Source of the DNA: Sutterella parvirubra YIT 11816
Lineage (GTDB): Bacteria; Pseudomonadota; Gammaproteobacteria; Burkholderiales; Burkholderiaceae_F
Length of the DNA: 15,173 nucleotides
Direction: 5' to 3'
Assembly (NCBI RefSeq): GCF_000250875.1
Contig: NZ_JH604928.1
Coordinates: forward strand, 19,480-34,652
Position numbers and translations under genes: made by a program
Shown: positions 1 through 14,476 of the stretch, one piece after another
Layout of the letters: every line of letters begins with the position of its first letter
Position numbering within the stretch: position 1 is the first letter of the stretch
Notes under the pieces: generated by a model
Databases searched by the model: none
The model's input: only the letters and a program-made list of their open reading frames with translations
What the model was told of the DNA's origin: nothing

Positions 1-280
1 GGCCGCCCCCGACCTTCGCGCCCGCGACGTCGATCACGGTGTCGTCCGGATGGAAGGCGCGGTTGGCGCGCTTGAAGGGGTCGGAAATGTGCTTGACTTC
101 GGCAACGATCGGGTGACCGAGGAGCCGGTCGTCGTCGAGGCGGCGCGTGTCGCCGACGACGCCGACGATGGTCTTTTCCGTGCCGACCACGACGGTGGTC
201 TTGAGACCCTGGGCCTCGATGTCGGCGACCAGCTGCCGCAGGCTCTCTTGAGAGGCCTCGGGTTTCGTGATGATGATCAT
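1..280 (-). CDS. aroF: DAHP synthase, N-terminal part (runs off left edge)
   Basis: 3-Deoxy-D-arabino-heptulosonate-7-phosphate synthase condenses phosphoenolpyruvate and erythrose 4-phosphate, the first step of the shikimate pathway, in the cytoplasm. Only the first 93 residues are present. They begin MIIITKPEAS and form a compact alpha/beta regulatory domain (about 1-67) with the TIVGVVGDTR strand-turn near residues 37-46. The hinge to the catalytic barrel follows: FKRANRAFHPDDTVIDVAG near 69-87. This is the arrangement of the Thermotoga maritima type I-beta enzyme, whose N-terminal ferredoxin-like domain mediates feedback inhibition by Tyr and Phe (family knowledge). The start at 280 is supported by an AAGGAAG Shine-Dalgarno 7-8 nt upstream. 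A Phe/Tyr leader peptide and attenuator precede it, which fits the assignment well. The catalytic metal and substrate residues lie outside the window. Confidence 0.9.
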   Translation of the reverse strand, partial: MIIITKPEASQESLRQLVADIEAQGLKTTVVVGTEKTIVGVVGDTRRLDDDRLLGHPIVAEVKHISDPFKRANRAFHPDDTVIDVAGAKVGGG

Positions 281-340
281 GGCGTGTCTTCCTTTTTCGC
301 TTCGGTGGGTTTCTGTGGAACCCTGCGGTGAAGACACGTC
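281..340 (-). promoter_or_regulatory. Helix sequestering the aroF Shine-Dalgarno
   Basis: Bases 330-340 and 281-291 are inverted repeats: nine consecutive Watson-Crick pairs (GAAGACACG with CGTGTCTTC), then one G.U and one G-C pair. In the minus-strand transcript the second arm lies directly before the aroF AUG and contains most of its GGAAG Shine-Dalgarno (288-292). A smaller hairpin, GGGTT with AACCC, can form in the loop. The pairing is seen directly. A role in limiting aroF translation when the helix is formed is inference. Confidence 0.5.
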
Positions 341-399
341 GGCGGTGGGGATCGGCTTGTGCGGGGAAGGACCTGCGGAGATGTGGTGAGGGACCTTCC

Positions 400-443
400 T
401 AAAAACCGAGAACCTGCGGGGACGTGAATTCACCGCAGGTTCT
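400..443 (-). terminator. Attenuator terminator of the aroF leader
   Basis: In the minus-strand transcript AGAACCTGCGG (443-433) pairs perfectly with CCGCAGGTTCT (419-409), giving 11 bp around a 13-nt loop. CGG and then a run of five U (405-401) follow. It lies between the leader peptide stop (493) and the aroF start (280), so it would end transcription before the enzyme gene. It is the 3:4 structure of a classical amino acid attenuator. Confidence 0.85.
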
Positions 444-490
444 TGGGGGTTGGGACTTCAGAAGGGTCCCGTTCGTGCAGCGCAATTCAC
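424..490 (-). promoter_or_regulatory. Candidate antiterminator (2:3 pairing)
   Basis: Just after the leader stop codon, GTGAATT (490-484) is complementary to AATTCAC (430-424) in the terminator loop. CTGCA (480-476) can pair with TGCGG (437-433), including one U.G pair, across a small internal loop. Forming this would take five of the eleven bases of the terminator's 5' arm. Its 5' part overlaps the base of the 1:2 hairpin (extended by wobble to 488), so the two should compete. The complementarity is seen; the regulatory role is inferred and no folding energy was calculated. Confidence 0.5.
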
Positions 491-514
491 TTCTACCGGT
501 AGTAGCGGTAGAAG
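490..514 (-). promoter_or_regulatory. 1:2 hairpin over the leader Tyr codons
   Basis: CTTCTACCG (514-506) and CGGTAGAAG (498-490) form a perfect 9-bp stem with a 7-nt loop, extendable by a G.U and a C-G pair. The stem and loop contain the codons for Phe13, all three Tyr and the stop codon of the leader peptide. A ribosome that reaches the stop would cover this region, while one stalled at Tyr codons would prevent the hairpin, as in known Phe, His and Trp leaders. Confidence 0.7.
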
Positions 515-549
515 CGGCTAAATCGCTGACTGCGTCGAACGGAATTCAT
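493..549 (-). CDS. Phe/Tyr leader peptide of the aroF attenuator
   Basis: An 18-residue reading frame reads MNSVRRSQRFSRFYRYYR and then TAG. Its second half holds two Phe and three Tyr codons (positions 10, 13, 14, 16, 17). These sit directly in the 5' arm and loop of a 9-bp hairpin that is followed by a terminator and then by DAHP synthase. The peptide itself probably has no function. Its translation would sense charged Phe- and Tyr-tRNA, and stalling at these codons would favour antitermination and enzyme synthesis. The start ATG at 549 has a modest purine-rich Shine-Dalgarno (AGAGAGAA, about 7 nt upstream). The peptide also has six Arg codons interleaved with the aromatic ones, so a part-response to Arg starvation cannot be excluded. 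The alternative is a chance ORF, which the register of codons, hairpin, terminator and target gene makes unlikely. Confidence 0.8.
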   Translation of the reverse strand: MNSVRRSQRFSRFYRYYR

Positions 550-618
550 GTCGTTTCTCTCTGAAGTCCAAATGGGGGTTTGGGGGTTGTCGGTCAGGCG
601 AGGATCGGCGTCCGACAT

Positions 619-1383: not shown

Positions 1384-3057
1384 ATGCCCAAGCTCTTCCG
1401 ACATCTCCTCCGCACCCTCCGCCCCGCCCGCCTCCTCGCGGCCGCGGGGCTCGGCGCGCTCATCCTCTGCGGAGCCCGGGCGGCGGAGCCGCTCACGCTC
1501 ACGATCCTTCACGCGAACGACACGCACAGCTTCGCGGCGGGCGTGATGCGCCGCGGGGTCGCGGCGGATTCGGACGAGCAGTCTACGGGCGGCTACGCGA
1601 GGCTCGCCGCGGCGGTGAACGCGGAAAAAGCGAAGAACCCCAACGTCATCGCCCTCGACTCGGGCGACCGCTGGCAGGGAACGCTCTTCTTCAGCCTCCT
1701 CGGCCCCGACTTCATCACCGCGCTCACGAACCGCATGCCCTGGGACGCGATGACGCTTGGGAACCACGAGTTCGACCTCGGGTGCGAACGTCTCGCTGAA
1801 GTCCTCCCGCAGGAAAAGCTCCCGATCCTCGCCGCCAACATCGCACGCCGTCATGAAGGCGAAGACGCCTGCCCGATCGAAGGCAGACTCCCCGGCACGA
1901 TGGTGAAGACCGTCTCCGGCGTCAAGGTCGGGATCTTCGGGATCGCGAACGACGAGGTGAAGGTGGTCTCGAAGGCCTGTCCCGCCACCACCTTCGACAC
2001 CCGCGAGGACGCGGCCCGGAAGGCCGTGGCGGCGCTGCGCGCCCAAGGGGCGGAGATCATCATCGCGCTCACCCACATTGGCTACCCCGCCGACCGTGAA
2101 CTCGCCCGATCGGTCGCCGGCATCGACGTGATCGTGGGCGGGCACACGCACAGTCTTTTGGGGAAGAACCTCCGCGGGTCCGAGGGTCCCTACCCGACCG
2201 TCGAAATTTCGCCCGCGGGCGAGCCGGTCCTCGTCGTGCAGGCGAAGCGCTCGACCGAATACCTGGGGCGCCTCGTCGTCGCCTTTGATGAAAAGGGCCG
2301 CGCCGCCGCGTGGACCGGCGCTCCGGTGCGTTTGACCTCTGAGAAGCCCCGCGATCCGGAGCTTCGCGACGCGGTCGCGAAGGCGGCGGGGGTTTTGGAG
2401 AAGGCCCGCACCGTCAAGGTTTCGACGAACCCCAACGAATTTCCCGACGGGCTCGATCCCTGCCGCTGGGGTGACTGCCTCGCCGGCATGGTGACGGCGG
2501 ACGCCTTCCTTGACTTCGCCCGCCCCTACGGCGCGACCATCGCGCTTTTGAACGGCGGCGCGGTCCGCTCGGCGCTCCCCGTCGGCACGGTCGACCGCGG
2601 GAGCTTGGAAGAGATCCACCCCTTCGGGAACCTCATCGCCGTGATCGACGTCACGGGCGAGGCGATCCGCGCGGCGTTGGAGAACGGCGTCGCCGACCCG
2701 GACGTCGGCGGCCCGCACCTGCTGCAGCCTTCGGGCCTGCGCTACGCGGTCGATCCCGCGCAGCCCGTAGGTCACCGCATCCTGTCGGTCGAGACGGTTG
2801 AAACCGACGAAGCCGACGAAGCTGGGAAAGGCGCCTGGGTCCCGCTTGATCCCGCGAAGACCTACCGCATCGCCACGGTGAAGTACGTCGCCGACGGCGA
2901 CGACTTCGCGATGTTCGCCGACGCGCCGCGGGTGCCCGCGAACGACGCGCTCGAAGTCGACGTAATGGACGCGTACCTGCGCGCCCACGACCCGCTCCCG
3001 ATGCCCGCGGCCGGCCGCATCACCGGAATGCCCGAGATGCCCGAAGCGGCGGAGTGA
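1384..3057 (+). CDS. Exported 5'-nucleotidase / UshA-family metallophosphatase
   Basis: Periplasmic phosphohydrolase that should cleave nucleoside 5'-monophosphates or related nucleotides to nucleoside and phosphate. It has 557 residues, close to E. coli UshA. A basic start followed by a hydrophobic stretch (about 17-33) and ARAAEP gives a Sec signal peptide. The metallophosphatase core has the metal-binding motifs in order: HANDTH 43-48, DSGDRWQG 92-99, GNHEF 126-130, TH 230-231 and GGHTH 252-256. The C-terminal substrate domain has NGGAVR 390-395 and DGDDFAMF 504-511, where UshA-type enzymes have the aromatic base-stacking loop. There is no clear Shine-Dalgarno before the ATG, which is nevertheless the start that gives a good signal peptide. 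The exact substrate (5'-nucleotides, UDP-sugars or 2',3'-cyclic nucleotides) cannot be settled. It is divergent from two small membrane genes and followed after 79 nt by the pseudouridine synthase gene. Confidence 0.88.
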   Translation: MPKLFRHLLRTLRPARLLAAAGLGALILCGARAAEPLTLTILHANDTHSFAAGVMRRGVAADSDEQSTGGYARLAAAVNAEKAKNPNVIALDSGDRWQGTLFFSLLGPDFITALTNRMPWDAMTLGNHEFDLGCERLAEVLPQEKLPILAANIARRHEGEDACPIEGRLPGTMVKTVSGVKVGIFGIANDEVKVVSKACPATTFDTREDAARKAVAALRAQGAEIIIALTHIGYPADRELARSVAGIDVIVGGHTHSLLGKNLRGSEGPYPTVEISPAGEPVLVVQAKRSTEYLGRLVVAFDEKGRAAAWTGAPVRLTSEKPRDPELRDAVAKAAGVLEKARTVKVSTNPNEFPDGLDPCRWGDCLAGMVTADAFLDFARPYGATIALLNGGAVRSALPVGTVDRGSLEEIHPFGNLIAVIDVTGEAIRAALENGVADPDVGGPHLLQPSGLRYAVDPAQPVGHRILSVETVETDEADEAGKGAWVPLDPAKTYRIATVKYVADGDDFAMFADAPRVPANDALEVDVMDAYLRAHDPLPMPAAGRITGMPEMPEAAE

Positions 3058-3136
3058 CGGAGTGTCGGAACGCCTCTGCCCCTTCCGAAGCCGCCGAACT
3101 CACCCCCTGAATCCCTTTTGCTTTTGAAGCCTCCCC

Positions 3137-4510
3137 ATGACCGAGCCCCATTTCCTTCACCTCATGCCTCCCGAAGGTTTGGACGTCCCCGCGCGCCTTC
3201 CCAACCTTTGGTACGGCCCGCCCGCGCCCGTCGCGCGGTGTGCGGCGACGCTCATGCGCACGGCGCTCCCCGACGGCTTCTCGGGCCGCGTCGGGGTGGT
3301 CGTGGCGGTGAAGGCGTCGGGCGCAGATGACGCCCCGGGCATCGTTCACGCCGCCTGGGCGGCGGAACCCGCCCACCGCCCGGGGGTGGGCGTCTCCCCC
3401 GACCACCCGACGCTCCCCGCCGCGGACAGGCTCGTCGAACCCATGGAGGACGACGACTTCCAAAGGGCGGCCGCCGGCCTCGTCATACCCTTTGCGGACG
3501 GCACCTCCCGCACGCTCCTCGACCTCGCCCAAGAGCTCACCGCCGGGAAGCCGAAGTCCATCGCCCGCGGGGGCGGCGCGGGGCTGAAGCTCACGTACCG
3601 GCACTGGAACCGCGCGATGGCGGACGCCTTCCAAACGCCCGCCGTGCGGCTCGGCATCCTCATGAACACCGAAGGCGTGCGTCTGGGGCTGCGCCCCGCC
3701 GCGTATTTCGAATGGTGGGCGGGTGAGACGCCCCCGCACGACGTCAAATGGGACGGGATGCCGCTCTCGCCCCGCACCACCGCGAAGCCCGTGATCGAGC
3801 GCCTCTGGGAGGCGTGGTCCCCGGCGCCCGACCCCCGCTTCACCGACCCCGCCGTCGCGGCGCTCGCGCCCCGGATCATCGAAGAGGCCGAGGACTGGAT
3901 CGTGATCGAGAAGCCCTCGGGGCTCCTCTCCGTCCCGGGCGCGATGGGGCTTCCCGACGCGATGAGCATGACGGCCAAAGTGACGAACACCGTCCTCGTC
4001 CCCGTGCACCGCCTCGACATGGACACCTCGGGGCTCTTGGTCTACGCCAAGACCGACCGCGGCACCAAGGCGCTGATGGCGGCCTTCCGGGAGGGGCGCG
4101 TCGAGAAGCGCTACCGGGCTTTGCTTGAGAAGCGCCTCCCGGACGCGTTGGGCACAGAAGGCGAAGTGCGCTTTCCCATCACGACGAATCCCCTGGACCG
4201 GCTCCGTCAGTGCGCCGCCGTGGGCGGGCGCGAGAGCCTCACGCGTTGGAAGGTTTTGGGAAAGAGCGCAGAACGCACGCTCGTGGAAATGGAGCCCGTC
4301 ACGGGCCGCACGCACCAGCTGCGGCTCCACGCCGCGCACGCGCTGGGGCTGAACGCCCCGATGGTGAACGACCCCTACTACGGCTTCGACGGGATCGCGG
4401 CGGAGACGCCGGCGACGCCCCTCAATCTGCACGCCGCGATGCTCGACTTCCCGGACCCGGTGACGGGCGAGCGTCGGCGCTTTGAGACCGAGCCCGCCTT
4501 TCACCTCTGA
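3137..4510 (+). CDS. RluA-family pseudouridine synthase, long form with N-terminal extension
   Basis: Cytoplasmic enzyme that isomerises uridine to pseudouridine in rRNA or tRNA. The catalytic domain occupies about residues 245-457: IVIEKPSGLLSVPG 255-268, the catalytic-loop motif HRLDMDTSG 291-299 with Asp294 as nucleophile, EKRYRALL 323-330, and TGRTHQLRLH 389-398. The first 240 residues are an extension without an S4 domain. Its start (FLHLMPPEGLDVPARLPNLW, then a GRVGVVVAVKA strand) recalls the N-terminal region of the roughly 550-residue RluA-like proteins of Vibrio and Bacteroides, which is recognition from memory. Here it is shorter and lacks a long coiled coil. No strong Shine-Dalgarno precedes the ATG. 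The kinase-like gene follows after 53 nt, so the two may be co-transcribed. The target uridine is not predictable from sequence. Confidence 0.88.
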   Translation: MTEPHFLHLMPPEGLDVPARLPNLWYGPPAPVARCAATLMRTALPDGFSGRVGVVVAVKASGADDAPGIVHAAWAAEPAHRPGVGVSPDHPTLPAADRLVEPMEDDDFQRAAAGLVIPFADGTSRTLLDLAQELTAGKPKSIARGGGAGLKLTYRHWNRAMADAFQTPAVRLGILMNTEGVRLGLRPAAYFEWWAGETPPHDVKWDGMPLSPRTTAKPVIERLWEAWSPAPDPRFTDPAVAALAPRIIEEAEDWIVIEKPSGLLSVPGAMGLPDAMSMTAKVTNTVLVPVHRLDMDTSGLLVYAKTDRGTKALMAAFREGRVEKRYRALLEKRLPDALGTEGEVRFPITTNPLDRLRQCAAVGGRESLTRWKVLGKSAERTLVEMEPVTGRTHQLRLHAAHALGLNAPMVNDPYYGFDGIAAETPATPLNLHAAMLDFPDPVTGERRRFETEPAFHL

Positions 4511-5210: not shown

Positions 5211-7877
5211 ATGGACAAGAAGGACCAAACCATCGCCCCGGCGACCGCGCCTGACACCGCCGTCGCCGCCCCCGAAGCATCCGCCCAAACGGAAGCGGTT
5301 TGCCCCATCACCGCCGCCGAGCCCGAAACGCTCCGCATGGCGGTCTCCGGCATGACCTGCGCCGCCTGCTCGGCGCGGGTCGAGCGCGCCGTCGCGGAAG
5401 TCGACGGCGTCGACGCCGTGTCGGTGAACCTCCTCAAGAATTCGATGAGCGTCACCGCGGCGCCCGGTGCGGACACCGCGGCCCTCCGGGCCGACATCGT
5501 CCGTGCGGTCGAGCGCGCGGGCTACGGCGTCCCCGACGCGAACGCCCCGGCGGGCGCCCCCGGGAACCCCGCCGCGGCGATCGACGCCGACGCGGAAGCC
5601 GCCAAAGCGCTTCAGGCCGACTACCGTCGGCTCATCACGTCGGTCGTTCTGCTGATCCCGCTCTTTGCGATTGCGATGGGCCCCATGGTGGGCGTGACGC
5701 TCCCCTTCGGGCTCGGCAACCCCGAAAACCGCCTGGTTTCGGCGCTCCTGCAGCTCTTCCTCGCGGTCCCGATCCTCTTCCTCGAGCGCGGGTTCTTCAT
5801 CCGCGGCTTCAAGGCGCTCTGGATGCGCGCCCCGAACATGGATTCGCTGGTCGCGATCGGCTCGGGCGCGTCGCTTCTCTACGGCCTCTGGGTGATCCTC
5901 GCGATGGCGCACGCGCTGGGTCTCGGTGACCAAGAAATGGTCGCCCACCTCGCGCACAGCCTCTACCTCGAAGGCGCCGCGATGATCGTGACGTTGGTCG
6001 CGGTCGGGAAATACTTGGAAGCCCGCGCCAAGGGGAAGACCTCGGAAGCCGTGGCGGCTTTGCTGAAGCTCGCGCCGCCCACGGCGGTGGTCTTGAAGGA
6101 CGGGAAGGAAACCCTCGTCAACCGCGACGACGTGGTTGCGGGCGACGTCCTGGTGCTTCGCACCGGCTCCACCGTCCCCGTCGACGGCGTGATCCTCACG
6201 GGCACCGGCACCTTCGACGAATCCGCGATGACGGGTGAGAGCCGTCCGCAGGAAAAGGCCGAGGGCAACACGGTGCTGGGCGCGACCCTCGTCACGTCCG
6301 GCCACATGACCGCCCGCGCGACCCGCGTCGGGAACGAAACGGTTCTGGCGCAGATCATCCGCATGGTGGACGAAGCGACCTCCTCCAAAGCGCCGGTCGC
6401 GCGCCTTGCCGACCAGGTGAGCGCCGTCTTCGTGCCCTTCGTGATCGGCGTCGCGCTCCTTTCCTTGGCCATCTGGCTTCTGATCGGTGCGACCTTCGAG
6501 GTCGCGCTCACGCACGCCGTCGCGGTCCTCGTCATTTCGTGTCCGTGCGCCCTGGGGCTCGCCACCCCCACGGCCGTGATGGTCGCGACGGGTGCGGGCG
6601 CCCGCCGCGGGATTCTCTTCAAGAACGCGGCGGCGTTGGAGCACCTCCGCAACACCACGCACGTCGTTCTCGACAAGACCGGGACGGTCACGTCCGGGAA
6701 GCCCGCCGTCGTGGGGCTCGTTCCGAAGGAGGCGGGGCTTGAATCGCCGCTTCTCATGATCGCGGCGGCGCTCGAAAGCAAGTCCGAACACCCGCTCGCC
6801 CACGCCGTCACGACCGAAGCCGCGGCCAAGAACATGGCGCCGCTTCCCGTCGAGGACTTCCGCCAGACGCCCGGGCGCGGGATTTCCGCCCGGATCGGTG
6901 CGAAGACCTACTTCGCCGGGAACGCCCGCTGGGCGGCCGACTGCGGCACCAACCCCAAGGACCTTGAGGTCGAAGCCTTTGAGAACCGCGGCGAAACGGT
7001 CCTCTACGTGGGCCAAGCAGGCAGTGAAGGCGCGCCCGGGACGCTTTTGGGCGCCATCCGCGTCGCCGACCCCGTGAAGCCCGACTCCAAGGACGCGATC
7101 GCGGCCTTGAAGCGCATGGGCCTGCGCGTGACGATTTTGACAGGCGACGAAAAGCGCACGGCCGAAACCGTCGGGCGCGACGTCGGGGCCGACCACGTGA
7201 TCGCAGGCGTTCTCCCGCAGGAAAAGGCGCAGCACGTCGACCGTCTCCAGAGTGAGGGTGAGCGCGTCCTCATGGTGGGTGACGGCGTGAACGACGCCCC
7301 GGCGCTCGCCGCCGCCGACGTCGGCGCCGCCATCGGCGCCGGGACCGACGTGGCCTTGGCGAGTGCGGACGTCGTCCTCATGAAGAATTCGCTCGCGGAC
7401 TTGGTCGCCGCGGTCGAACTCTCGCGCGCCGCGATCCGCAACATCCGCCAGAACCTCTTTTGGGCCTTCGCCTACAACACCGCCGGGATTCCGGTCGCGG
7501 CGGGCGTTTTTGCGGGCGCGGGGCTAAGCTTGAATCCCATGATCGCCGCCGCGGCGATGAGCTTGTCGAGCGTCTCCGTCGTCTCGAACGCGCTGCGGCT
7601 GCGGCGCTTCCGCCCGTCGATGGGCGGGGCGCTCCCCGACACCACCACTCCGAAGGAGAAGCAAACCATGAAGAAAACGATCCGCATCGAAGGCATGCAC
7701 TGCGGGAACTGCACGGGCCGCGTCCAAAAGGCTTTGGCCGCGCTCCCCGGCGTCGAGTCCGTCGAGGTCTCTTTGGAAGGGAAGTGCGCGACGGTCGTCG
7801 TCGACATCTTCGTGACGGACGAGATCCTGAAGAGCACCGTCGAGGGTCTCGGCTTCACGGTGACCGCGATCGAATAA
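5211..7877 (+). CDS. copA: Cu(I)-exporting P-type ATPase with C-terminal CopZ domain fusion
   Basis: Inner-membrane pump that uses ATP to export Cu(I), 888 residues. In order: Ala/Pro-rich start; N-terminal heavy-metal domain with GMTCAAC (48-53); transmembrane helices from about 140; actuator motif TGES (341-344); transport-site CPC (C444, C446); phosphorylated DKTGT (D488); SEHP (525-528) in the nucleotide domain; GDGVNDAP (690-697); and YN (755-756) and MSLSS (783-787) in the last helices, the signature of Cu(I) P1B-1 pumps. The normal end is near residue 801. Here the frame continues through an 18-residue linker into a second heavy-metal domain with GMHCGNC (828-834), whose sequence looks like a whole CopZ chaperone starting at Met820. 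GAGG precedes the start. No clear CueR dyad was found upstream. A terminator at 7910 ends the unit. Confidence 0.93.
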   Translation: MDKKDQTIAPATAPDTAVAAPEASAQTEAVCPITAAEPETLRMAVSGMTCAACSARVERAVAEVDGVDAVSVNLLKNSMSVTAAPGADTAALRADIVRAVERAGYGVPDANAPAGAPGNPAAAIDADAEAAKALQADYRRLITSVVLLIPLFAIAMGPMVGVTLPFGLGNPENRLVSALLQLFLAVPILFLERGFFIRGFKALWMRAPNMDSLVAIGSGASLLYGLWVILAMAHALGLGDQEMVAHLAHSLYLEGAAMIVTLVAVGKYLEARAKGKTSEAVAALLKLAPPTAVVLKDGKETLVNRDDVVAGDVLVLRTGSTVPVDGVILTGTGTFDESAMTGESRPQEKAEGNTVLGATLVTSGHMTARATRVGNETVLAQIIRMVDEATSSKAPVARLADQVSAVFVPFVIGVALLSLAIWLLIGATFEVALTHAVAVLVISCPCALGLATPTAVMVATGAGARRGILFKNAAALEHLRNTTHVVLDKTGTVTSGKPAVVGLVPKEAGLESPLLMIAAALESKSEHPLAHAVTTEAAAKNMAPLPVEDFRQTPGRGISARIGAKTYFAGNARWAADCGTNPKDLEVEAFENRGETVLYVGQAGSEGAPGTLLGAIRVADPVKPDSKDAIAALKRMGLRVTILTGDEKRTAETVGRDVGADHVIAGVLPQEKAQHVDRLQSEGERVLMVGDGVNDAPALAAADVGAAIGAGTDVALASADVVLMKNSLADLVAAVELSRAAIRNIRQNLFWAFAYNTAGIPVAAGVFAGAGLSLNPMIAAAAMSLSSVSVVSNALRLRRFRPSMGGALPDTTTPKEKQTMKKTIRIEGMHCGNCTGRVQKALAALPGVESVEVSLEGKCATVVVDIFVTDEILKSTVEGLGFTVTAIE
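7668..7877 (+). CDS. copZ: Candidate CopZ copper chaperone made by internal initiation in copA
   Basis: The last 69 residues of the copA frame form a self-contained heavy-metal-associated domain. It starts MKKTIRIEGMHCGNC and has CxxC cysteines at residues 12 and 15 of the short product. An ideal Shine-Dalgarno, AAGGAG (7653-7658), lies 9 nt before the in-frame ATG at 7668, and no stop codon separates it from the ATPase. Free CopZ carries Cu(I) in the cytoplasm to CopA. The simplest reading is that copZ was a separate downstream gene whose upstream stop was lost, so that both a fused pump and a free chaperone could be made. E. coli copA also yields two products, but by ribosomal frameshifting at the N-terminal domain. 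That the short protein is actually made is inference. An error in the window sequence that removed a stop is also possible. Confidence 0.55.
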   Translation: MKKTIRIEGMHCGNCTGRVQKALAALPGVESVEVSLEGKCATVVVDIFVTDEILKSTVEGLGFTVTAIE

Positions 7878-13168: not shown

Positions 13169-13194
13169 GGCCGGAAGTGCGACCGCTTCCGGCC
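13169..13194 (+). other. Stem-loop upstream of the periplasmic rhodanese gene
   Basis: GGCCGGAAG (13169-13177) pairs with CTTCCGGCC (13186-13194) in a 9-bp stem with an 8-nt loop, followed only by TTCGC. It lies 42 nt before the ATG at 13237, either as the 3' end of the regulator transcript or as a 5' leader structure of the rhodanese mRNA. Confidence 0.5.
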
Positions 13195-13236
13195 TTCGCA
13201 CATGGATTGCCATCAAACCCCAAGGAGAATCTGACC

Positions 13237-13668
13237 ATGCGTCTTCGTCATGCCGCCCTCGCGCTTACGCTCGCCACCGGGCTTCTCGTCGGCCAGGCCC
13301 ACGCCCTCGAACCCGTGAACCCGCAGCCCGCGACCCCGCTCACGTATTCGAACCCGGCCTACCACAAGATCACGCCGCAGGTCGCGAAGAAGATGATGGA
13401 GGAAGGGAACGTCGTGATCCTCGACGTGCGCAACCCCGACGAAATCCAGGCTGAAGGGAAGATCAAGGGGTCGGTGAACGTTCCCCTCGGGGAACTGCGT
13501 CCCGGCGTGAAGCTCCAGGCGGCGCCGGACTTGAACCAGAAGATCCTCGTTCACTGCCGCTCGGGCGTGCGCGCAGAGAAGGCTTCGCAAATTCTGATTG
13601 AAACCGGCTACAAGGACGTCTACAACTTCTACGGCACGATGCAGTGGCCCTACGAGCTCGTGAAGTAA
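13237..13668 (+). CDS. Periplasmic single-domain rhodanese
   Basis: Sulfurtransferase-like protein, 143 residues, exported: Sec signal peptide MRLRHAALALTLATGLLVGQAHA. The mature part is one rhodanese domain: ITPQVAKKMMEEGNVVILDVRNPDE (45-69), GKIKGSVNVPLGEL (75-88), and the active-site loop HCRSGVRA (106-113) with Cys107 as the persulfide-forming residue, followed by AEKASQILIETGY. Rhodaneses move sulfane sulfur between thiosulfate or persulfide donors and thiol or cyanide acceptors. A six-residue loop starting at the Cys favours sulfur over phosphate or arsenate substrates. The start at 13237 is fixed by AAGGAG and the signal peptide; the in-frame ATG at 13177 lies within a hairpin. A terminator separates it from an ArsR-rhodanese regulator 151 nt downstream, so the two probably form a functional pair. 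Confidence 0.9.
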   Translation: MRLRHAALALTLATGLLVGQAHALEPVNPQPATPLTYSNPAYHKITPQVAKKMMEEGNVVILDVRNPDEIQAEGKIKGSVNVPLGELRPGVKLQAAPDLNQKILVHCRSGVRAEKASQILIETGYKDVYNFYGTMQWPYELVK

Positions 13669-13819: not shown

Positions 13820-14476
13820 ATGCGCAACATCGAACGCAAGCATCAGCTCTACGGCCGCGTGAGCCTCCTGGGCCGCGCCCTCGGGCATGAGACCCGGCTG
13901 GAGCTTCTGGAACTCCTCTCGCAGTGTCCGCAGACGGTGGAAAAGTTGGCGGCAACGCTCGACCACGACGTCAAGGCCGTGAGCGCGCACTTGAAAGTCC
14001 TCGCCAAGGCGGGGCTCGTCGCGGCGACGCGCGAGGGGCGCTTCATGCGCTATGCGCTGAAGAGCCCCAAGGTGGCGGCGCTGGCCGTGCTGCTGCGCGA
14101 AACCGCCGAGCAGATCGACCGGGACCTCGCGGGGCTCGTCCACGAAGTCGTCCCCAAAGCCCACGTGGATCTGAGGCAGGCGGTCGACGCGGCCGGGCGC
14201 GGGCAGATCGTCCTGATCGACGTGCGGCCCGCGGAAGAATACGCTGCGGGACATCTTCCCAATGCGGTGTCGATGCCGTTGGACGAGCTCGAGGCGCGCA
14301 TGGGCGAACTCGCCCAGGATGCGGTGTTGGTCGCCTACTGCCGCGGGCCCTACTGCTTCCAGGCGTTGGAAGCCAAAAAGATCTTCGAAGCCCACGGGCG
14401 GAGCCTGCGCGTCATTCCGGCGGGCGTCATGGAATGGGCGAGCCGCGGCGAGGCGCTCACGATCGAGAAGGCCTGA
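13820..14476 (+). CDS. ArsR-family repressor fused to a rhodanese domain
   Basis: Cytoplasmic one-component regulator, 218 residues. The N-terminal winged helix-turn-helix (about 8-100) has the ArsR layout: LGRALGHETRLELLELLSQCPQTVEKLAATL (17-47), the recognition helix VKAVSAHLKVLAKAGLV (51-67), and the wing ATREGRFMRYAL (69-80). A C-terminal rhodanese domain (about 115-215) has IVLIDVRPAEEYAAGHLPNA (130-149) and the active loop AYCRGPYC (172-179), giving Cys173 and Cys179. This fusion is a known architecture, and a role in sensing or handling persulfide or a metalloid is likely. The classical arsenic CxC metal site is absent; Cys36 is the only thiol in the DNA-binding part. GGAGG precedes the start. 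It may act on the palindrome before the upstream periplasmic rhodanese gene. Confidence 0.88.
   Translation: MRNIERKHQLYGRVSLLGRALGHETRLELLELLSQCPQTVEKLAATLDHDVKAVSAHLKVLAKAGLVAATREGRFMRYALKSPKVAALAVLLRETAEQIDRDLAGLVHEVVPKAHVDLRQAVDAAGRGQIVLIDVRPAEEYAAGHLPNAVSMPLDELEARMGELAQDAVLVAYCRGPYCFQALEAKKIFEAHGRSLRVIPAGVMEWASRGEALTIEKA

Follow-up and report, generated by a model that had tools for sequence, protein, structure and literature searches.

The window analysed here is the whole 15,173-nucleotide stretch of Sutterella parvirubra YIT 11816 DNA, and its minus strand holds at one end the start of a type I-beta DAHP synthase gene of the aroF type (ATG 280-278), which is cut by the window end. On the same strand, a short leader reading frame (ATG 549-547, TAG 495-493) and a set of RNA elements lie 5' of the gene (Table 1). 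Elsewhere in the window, the ORF list points to a copper-type P-ATPase on the plus strand (5211-7877), whose frame seems to continue and to encode another heavy-metal-binding domain (MKKTIRIEGMHCGNCTGR...). On the same basis, plus-strand 13820-14476 would be an ArsR-like regulator that ends in a rhodanese-like part, and a rhodanese-like ORF (13177-13668) adjoins it.

Table 1. Features of the aroF leader region in the window, with the basis of each assignment
Feature	Position	Strand	Basis
aroF-type gene for type I-beta DAHP synthase, first 93 codons, cut by window end	2..280	minus	PF18152, NF006421, PDB 1rzm
Intrinsic terminator, main stem 443-433 with 419-409, two more pairs 446-445 with 407-406, U5 405-401	401..446	minus	sequence, fold
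Segment 3, 3' strand of antiterminator, UGCGGUGAAUUCAC 437-424, overlaps 5' arm of terminator	424..437	minus	duplex energies
Segment 2, 5' strand of antiterminator, GUGAAUUGCGCUGCA 490-476	476..490	minus	duplex energies
Outer 1:2 helix, CAGCGAUU 528-521 with 487-478	478..528	minus	fold, alignment
Inner 1:2 (protector) hairpin, 516-506 with 498-488, loop 505-499	488..516	minus	fold and covariation
Leader ORF, 18 codons and TAG, MNSVRRSQRFSRFYRYYR	493..549	minus	sequence; counterparts in five family genomes with the gene
Shine-Dalgarno-like AGAGAG of leader, weak	557..562	minus	sequence
Possible extra helix, GGACUUCAG 569-561 with CUGAAGUCC 461-453	453..569	minus	fold, shuffles

A preliminary description of this region had proposed a Phe/Tyr attenuator made of a leader ending in Phe/Tyr codons, a 1:2 hairpin that holds the Tyr codons, a 2:3 antiterminator and an 11-bp terminator with U5 ahead of the aroF-type gene. 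The leader was found on the minus strand as described, and five of its 18 codons are aromatic (Phe10, Phe13, Tyr14, Tyr16 and Tyr17). The Tyr-codon hairpin is also present, but its inner stem comprises 11 bp, including one G-U, and not the 9 bp first given; the codons for Tyr16 and Tyr17 lie in its loop and those for Phe13 and Tyr14 in its 5' arm, and both fold and covariation place the regulatory codons under this protector hairpin, as in an attenuator. The terminator has the 11 bp and the U5 that had been described, with a 1x1 mismatch and two further pairs in addition, and sits between the leader and aroF. As a whole, the RNA from 575 to 395 folds at -77.8 kcal/mol, compared with a shuffle mean of -45.7 (z -8.1; 0/200 shuffles). 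A consensus scan of 281-900 recognized no sigma-70-like promoter and, by its own rule, which admits loops of at most 8 nt only, no terminator. In three relatives (L085-L087), -35/-10-like pairs end 47-60 nt 5' of the leader by an ad hoc score used without a control, and any position given to the promoter is conjectural.

The possible extra helix is a perfect 9-bp complement between the Shine-Dalgarno region of the leader and a stretch just 5' of the terminator. Such a helix exceeds shuffles in three of six Sutterellaceae sequences, namely the window, L002 and L087, and the pairings at this site in the last two are unrelated to that of the window in sequence and similar in strength. A helix hiding the Shine-Dalgarno region was rejected as a conserved feature, since L001, L085 and L086 are not above shuffles.

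The product of the gene carries the N-terminal ferredoxin-like domain PF18152 (E 2.9e-21; 75.5 bits against a cut-off of 27), which agrees with the Tyr/Phe-sensing domain of type I-beta enzymes that had been predicted; its match to NF006421, with a 93-codon partial protein as query, is below the cut-off of that model. Its nearest solved relatives include the Thermotoga structures 1rzm and 3pg9. The window end cuts the gene off before the DAHP synthase barrel PF00793, which was found in the relative L001, and ORFs for aroB, aroA and aroC were read by eye behind aroF in two relatives. The further suggestion of matched control at both levels gains no support from the alignment. His29 and Ser31 of the T. 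maritima enzyme, which we take to be Tyr contacts, have no counterpart in the window protein, where Thr and Val occupy the aligned positions; the five relatives show V or T at the first and M or V at the second, and 19 other Burkholderiales H or N and S. Feedback of the enzyme by Tyr/Phe is, on this alignment, unproven.

To compare upstream regions, we took the best 80 of 359 confirmed loci with related genes, among the matches listed; 78 are from outside Sutterella, and the two Sutterella loci are 71% and 80% identical to the window over 93 residues. Within the family, the type I-beta gene was detected in 5 of 67 genomes (E<=1e-60), and all five have a leader, hairpins and a terminator. The leaders of these five relatives measure 19-25 codons, their terminator core reads ACCTGCGG...GCAGGT, and each of the six Sutterellaceae leaders contains 5-8 aromatic codons. 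Two leader subgroups can be distinguished, one formed by the window, L002 and L001 (SQRFS) and a second, subgroup B, by L085-L087 (FYxAFWR); loops and stems differ in sequence between them, but either subgroup allows all three competing pairings. An aromatic leader, a terminator and competing pairings were thus observed in 6/6 Sutterellaceae examples, the window and its five relatives.

Covariation was counted in the window's subgroup only, that is, in three related sequences that are not independent trials. In this subgroup, 97.7% of the stem cells of 1:2 and 3:4 are paired, compared with 34-45% in slid versions of the alignment, and six pairs are changed on both sides, a result reached by 0/500 shuffles; in the inner 1:2 stem alone, 5 of 11 pairs are changed on both sides among the three sequences. 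The 2:3 pairing is formed in 97.4% of cells, with one pair changed on both sides, and its covariation is not above that of shuffles of this subgroup (170/500 equal it). The search of Sutterellaceae upstream regions for F/Y codons and stem covariation, suggested together with the preliminary description, therefore returned both, in favour of that description (6/6 leaders; 1:2 and 3:4, n=3).

Segments 2 and 3 of the window, the antiterminator first called plausible, pair at -19.6 kcal/mol, a value equalled by 13 of 1000 shuffles. What supports 2:3 is its energy. Over all six sequences the duplex ranges from -16.7 to -19.9 kcal/mol with the first bases of segment 4 included and from -13.3 to -19.9 without them, and the shuffles that equal it vary by sequence from 1 to 136 per 1000. 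In full-length RNA the terminator always wins at equilibrium, and hence an attenuation model needs a kinetic order. The usual attenuation model, which we prefer here by choice, restricts folding to the RNA between ribosome and polymerase. When only the RNA 3' of the ribosome, up to the polymerase, was allowed to fold, the window formed 13.5-16.4 pairs of 2:3 with the ribosome at any aromatic codon and 7.8 with the ribosome at the stop codon; in the other five Sutterellaceae, 2:3 likewise forms at aromatic stalls and weakens at the stop. When pairing across the ribosome was allowed, 2:3 was not favoured at F13 of the window (5.6 vs 7.9 pairs), nor at Y14, Y16 and Y17, nor at any stall site of L002 and L087. 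An antiterminator that excludes both 1:2 and 3:4 and forms on stalling is obtained in the downstream-RNA model and is not favoured under cross-ribosome pairing. In an automatic stall test, for which 59 leaders were tried and the 58 with a terminator were used, segment 3 formed 9.3 pairs with upstream RNA when the ribosome was stalled and 3.9 when it was at the stop; the ribosome-free value was 7.2, and shuffles gave 6.7 (Wilcoxon tests of the stalled state against the other three in this order: 5e-10, 3e-7 and 3e-9). Taken singly, only 19 of the 58 exceeded shuffles of their own sequence at the 5% level, and the window leader was not among them (28/100).

Computation thus shows the parts of the attenuator and their conservation, covarying 1:2 and 3:4 stems in one subgroup, and a 2:3 pairing that competes with these two. 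Taking these folding models into consideration, we regard the region as very probably a classical ribosome-mediated transcription attenuator that would govern the DAHP synthase gene and the following aro genes upon Phe/Tyr shortage, and we infer its response to tRNA charging as follows: (i) with charged Phe- and Tyr-tRNA plentiful, the ribosome would arrive at the leader stop and cover the start of segment 2, because of which segment 3 would pair with segment 4 and transcription would end near 401; (ii) with Phe or Tyr short, the ribosome would stall at codons 10-17, covering segment 1, so that 2:3 would pair, the terminator would be blocked and RNA polymerase would continue into aroF; (iii) with the leader untranslated, 1:2 and 3:4 would form and transcription would stop. 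Phe/Tyr attenuation of aroF, the core of the preliminary description, is well supported by the 6/6 Sutterellaceae examples and by the covarying stems of the window's subgroup.

Could the terminator instead be a constitutive one that ends an upstream transcript, with aroF transcribed from a promoter of its own between 400 and 281 and the ORF a chance occurrence? The 120 nt between terminator and aroF and the absence of a recognized promoter upstream fit this explanation, but the leader ORF and the three pairings recur in 6/6 Sutterellaceae, and aromatic leaders far exceed controls at homologues as well as before the type I-alpha gene described below, which makes it very unlikely. A riboswitch or T-box, where the RNA itself would be the sensor of a metabolite or of uncharged tRNA and the ORF incidental, is hardly credible: a terminator ahead of a biosynthetic gene and a strongly structured 5' region would suit it, yet Rfam gave no match at gathering score anywhere in the window and, for 281-640, none with E up to 1, and the aromatic-codon ORF is kept across subgroups although the stem sequences change.

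The 450 nt 5' of the gene in the best 80 of 359 confirmed loci were scanned with a strict rule, which calls for a short aromatic-rich ORF, a Shine-Dalgarno-like motif and a terminator. It was satisfied at 48 of the 80 loci and at 46 of the 78 from outside Sutterella, which are mostly clostridial, against 15/800 shuffles and 3/481 other ORFs; a relaxed rule without the Shine-Dalgarno motif gave 54/78 loci and 11/481 other ORFs. These counts were compared by Fisher test, and the 481 control ORFs are reading frames of at least 250 aa in any frame and not curated genes. Examples of the clostridial type are MSKFSFAAEYFYFYFTGFFGKVSSAFAVNV (L005) and MQNNMFAAAYYYFYFTSFGKVISFAA (L013). At one locus, L045, an aromatic-rich leader-like ORF MNTILFIFSFIFFAGFSFYNSFSFGFFCRKKYSA with a terminator (~3758-3954) precedes another ORF upstream of aroF, and here aroF may stand further down in an operon that is attenuated as a whole.

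Clostridia, the class of G069 (the genome of L013), were sampled evenly, and 106 of 148 genomes contained matches. One upstream region was taken in each of 98, eight being dropped because the match lacked a gene start or was unlisted; one locus of this sample, L120, was known beforehand. Leaders were found by the strict rule in 25/98 (shuffles 2/980) and by the relaxed rule in 50/98, of which L207, L271 and L277 look like chance. This suggests, from sequence scans, that in Clostridia between a quarter (strict) and half (relaxed) of the type I-beta aroF genes have such leaders. The clostridial phylum is better known for T-boxes; T-box control of aroF was rejected, as none was detected in 43 distinct relative loci (Rfam, gathering score), and at the leaders present in about 19 of these loci there was no match. 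Three clostridial DAHP synthase matches (G415, G465 and G401) have one in-frame stop each.

For the order Burkholderiales, 100 of 300 genomes matched at E<=1e-60, G001 included, and the best 69 of the 99 others were examined, one of them (L172) with only 176 nt upstream. An aromatic leader with a terminator, no Shine-Dalgarno motif being required, was present at 9/69 (L125, L128, L129, L133, L141, L145, L155, L173 and L174); the strict rule gave 0/40 of the Burkholderiales loci tested and 1/400 shuffles. Seven of the nine (all except L129 and L174) appear to belong to a separate leader family, FSFYYFP or similar, with strong terminators before type I-beta aroF.

Matches to the RNA models at E<=1 occurred in 16/67 genomes of the family for R2 and in 6/67 for R1. 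Most of the 12 extra R2 matches and the one extra R1 match resemble ordinary terminators, so that R2 E-values down to ~2e-4 mean little. Among 18 extra matches checked, an aromatic ORF was seen at L107 (E 0.43) and a weaker one at L104. The L107 match, with the leader MLIKSARFYFFSFYFCPLAEGDGVRA and a terminator, precedes in genome G018 a type I-alpha DAHP synthase, which has PF00793 without PF18152. A type I-alpha match is present in 45/67 family genomes (E<=1e-60); identity is 63-100% in 41 of these and only 47-50% in the other four (G001, G002, G027 and G029). When the upstream regions of the best-scoring 30 loci (L290-L319, one per genome) were surveyed, L297 having too little upstream, an aromatic ORF with a terminator was found before the gene at 29/29 by the relaxed rule and at 14 by the strict one; many of these leaders are of the form ARFYFYGFFRPLAERVERRA. 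In the five genomes that carry the type I-beta gene, the close type I-alpha form of the 41 genomes was never found (P 0.007, kinship ignored), and the absences of either gene are unsure because genome completeness is not given. At L001, a further DAHP synthase gene of the type I-alpha kind (2913-4154, minus strand) lies upstream of the type I-beta gene and in divergent orientation to it; its identity to the type I-alpha enzyme of G018 that has the leader is 49%.

We infer the history of the gene and its leader from a protein tree and from leader comparisons. The tree used 101 of 102 proteins (L020 was too short), with 19 of 29 Burkholderiales loci and without the 93 residues of the window, and was rooted at the midpoint for drawing only. 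The type I-beta proteins of the five Sutterellaceae cluster together (100/100) and nest within a group of 58 rows, most of them clostridial (100/96), and the 19 other Burkholderiales stand apart on a long branch (100/100); the 23-row fork that joins Sutterellaceae with L003 and L037 has support of only 88/93. On this topology, transfer of the gene from Clostridia to Sutterellaceae is likely.

For the leaders, a model built from the three Sutterella sequences and searched against the 78 other loci (716 kb) gave 14 matches at E<=10, ten of them at aroF leaders on the right strand, including all of the best six; three of the ten are the terminator part alone. A subgroup B model placed 16 of 25 matches, the best eight included, at clostridial aroF leaders. 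By position, ~1.6% would be expected there, and any terminator helps such a match. In a mostly non-coding part, from 9 nt before the leader stop to mid-terminator, L001 and the window have the clostridial L037 as best match (z 8.6 and 5.8; 0/200 shuffles) and L002 has L031 (z 2.4) before L037 (2.1), while subgroup B shows no clear clostridial match in this part. L001 aligns with L037 from the ATG to the U-tract (z 11.4, 60 shuffles).

These likenesses speak against, and do not dispose of, the explanation that the clostridial gene arrived without its attenuator: aroF would have been set behind one already resident, for instance the type I-alpha attenuator, or a new one would have arisen, the clostridial likeness being convergence. 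All 29 type I-alpha loci examined in the family have leaders, and when 16 of the 29 were added to a joint comparison, the window's full leader had its best matches among them (L315, z 5.6). The subgroup B leaders have a mean z of 2.6-2.8 with type I-alpha leaders vs 0.7-1.1 with clostridial ones, their best match being L290 (z 5.1-9.5), and the Sutterella leaders average 1.61 with other Burkholderiales vs 1.37 with clostridial leaders. In the mostly non-coding part, L002 then matched L303 best (4.1), and two of the three subgroup B leaders L312 (4.1 and 5.0), but the window and L001 were still best with L037 (z 6.3 and 7.4). We consider a resident or new attenuator a serious possibility that falls somewhat short of probable. 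Joint transfer of attenuator and gene is plausible on these alignments for the window's subgroup and may or may not extend to subgroup B.

Since the type I-beta proteins nest among clostridial ones, the type I-alpha gene has an aromatic leader and a terminator too and no genome has both close forms, the resident enzyme seems to have given way to a clostridial one with the control kept; judged from sequence, it looks like the replacement of one attenuated enzyme by another. Our fullest reading, which we put forward tentatively as nearly probable, is that the type I-alpha enzyme of the family would be attenuated by a Phe/Tyr leader, that a clostridial type I-beta enzyme would have replaced it in some lineages, bringing in the window's subgroup its own working attenuator across phyla, and that in some copies, the window included, the extra helix may hide the leader ribosome-binding site once the terminator has formed.

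The logic proposed for the window is that of the E. coli trp, pheA and pheST attenuators, where a leader peptide is combined with 1:2, 2:3 and 3:4 pairings; the genes and the leader codons differ. PMC11802643 names these three as attenuators, and according to PMC8632094 E. coli aroF itself was once hypothesised to be attenuated. Closer in kind is C. glutamicum, where, as PMC4046766 and PMC11802643 describe (Neshat et al. 2014), an aroR leader with Phe-Tyr-Phe precedes aroF, transcription is attenuated and Phe shortage raises expression. This system has the same short Phe/Tyr leader and attenuation before a DAHP synthase gene; however, it belongs to Actinobacteria, Tyr is reported to be without effect there (PMC4046766, PMC11802643), and we liken it by description, not by sequence. 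In Acholeplasma, the uORFC-13-1 motif, described in part of PMC8632094 from 24 sequences with a proposed function, places a Phe-codon uORF and a terminator before aroF, as in the window, a likeness again of description and not of sequence. Two uORF candidates at shikimate genes, which encode F and Y and come from a study of five genomes including Clostridium novyi (PMC6429828), resemble the window in their aromatic codons and are possibly clostridial; Fig. 6b of that paper may show clostridial aroF uORFs. Given these leaders, Phe/Tyr attenuation of aroF is already a known kind of control and its novelty is lower. Neither a clostridial aroF leader family nor likeness across phyla nor enzyme replacement was found described in open-licence PMC papers without supplementary files, in a search that predates the type I-alpha finding.

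The classical leader peptides of hisS/hisZ in bacilli have raised the question of spread by horizontal transfer as opposed to convergence (discussed in a section of PMC2965389). In that section, Naville and Gautheret (2010) report no likeness between Firmicutes and Proteobacteria leaders and ask whether there was transfer into Firmicutes or a new origin; here, some likeness across phyla is seen for part of the sequences. By its tree, the type I-beta gene of Sutterellaceae probably came from Clostridia, the attenuator of the window's subgroup keeps a clostridial likeness, and the family's own DAHP synthase appears to be attenuated as well; with these three together, transfer and re-invention of a leader become testable with one gene.
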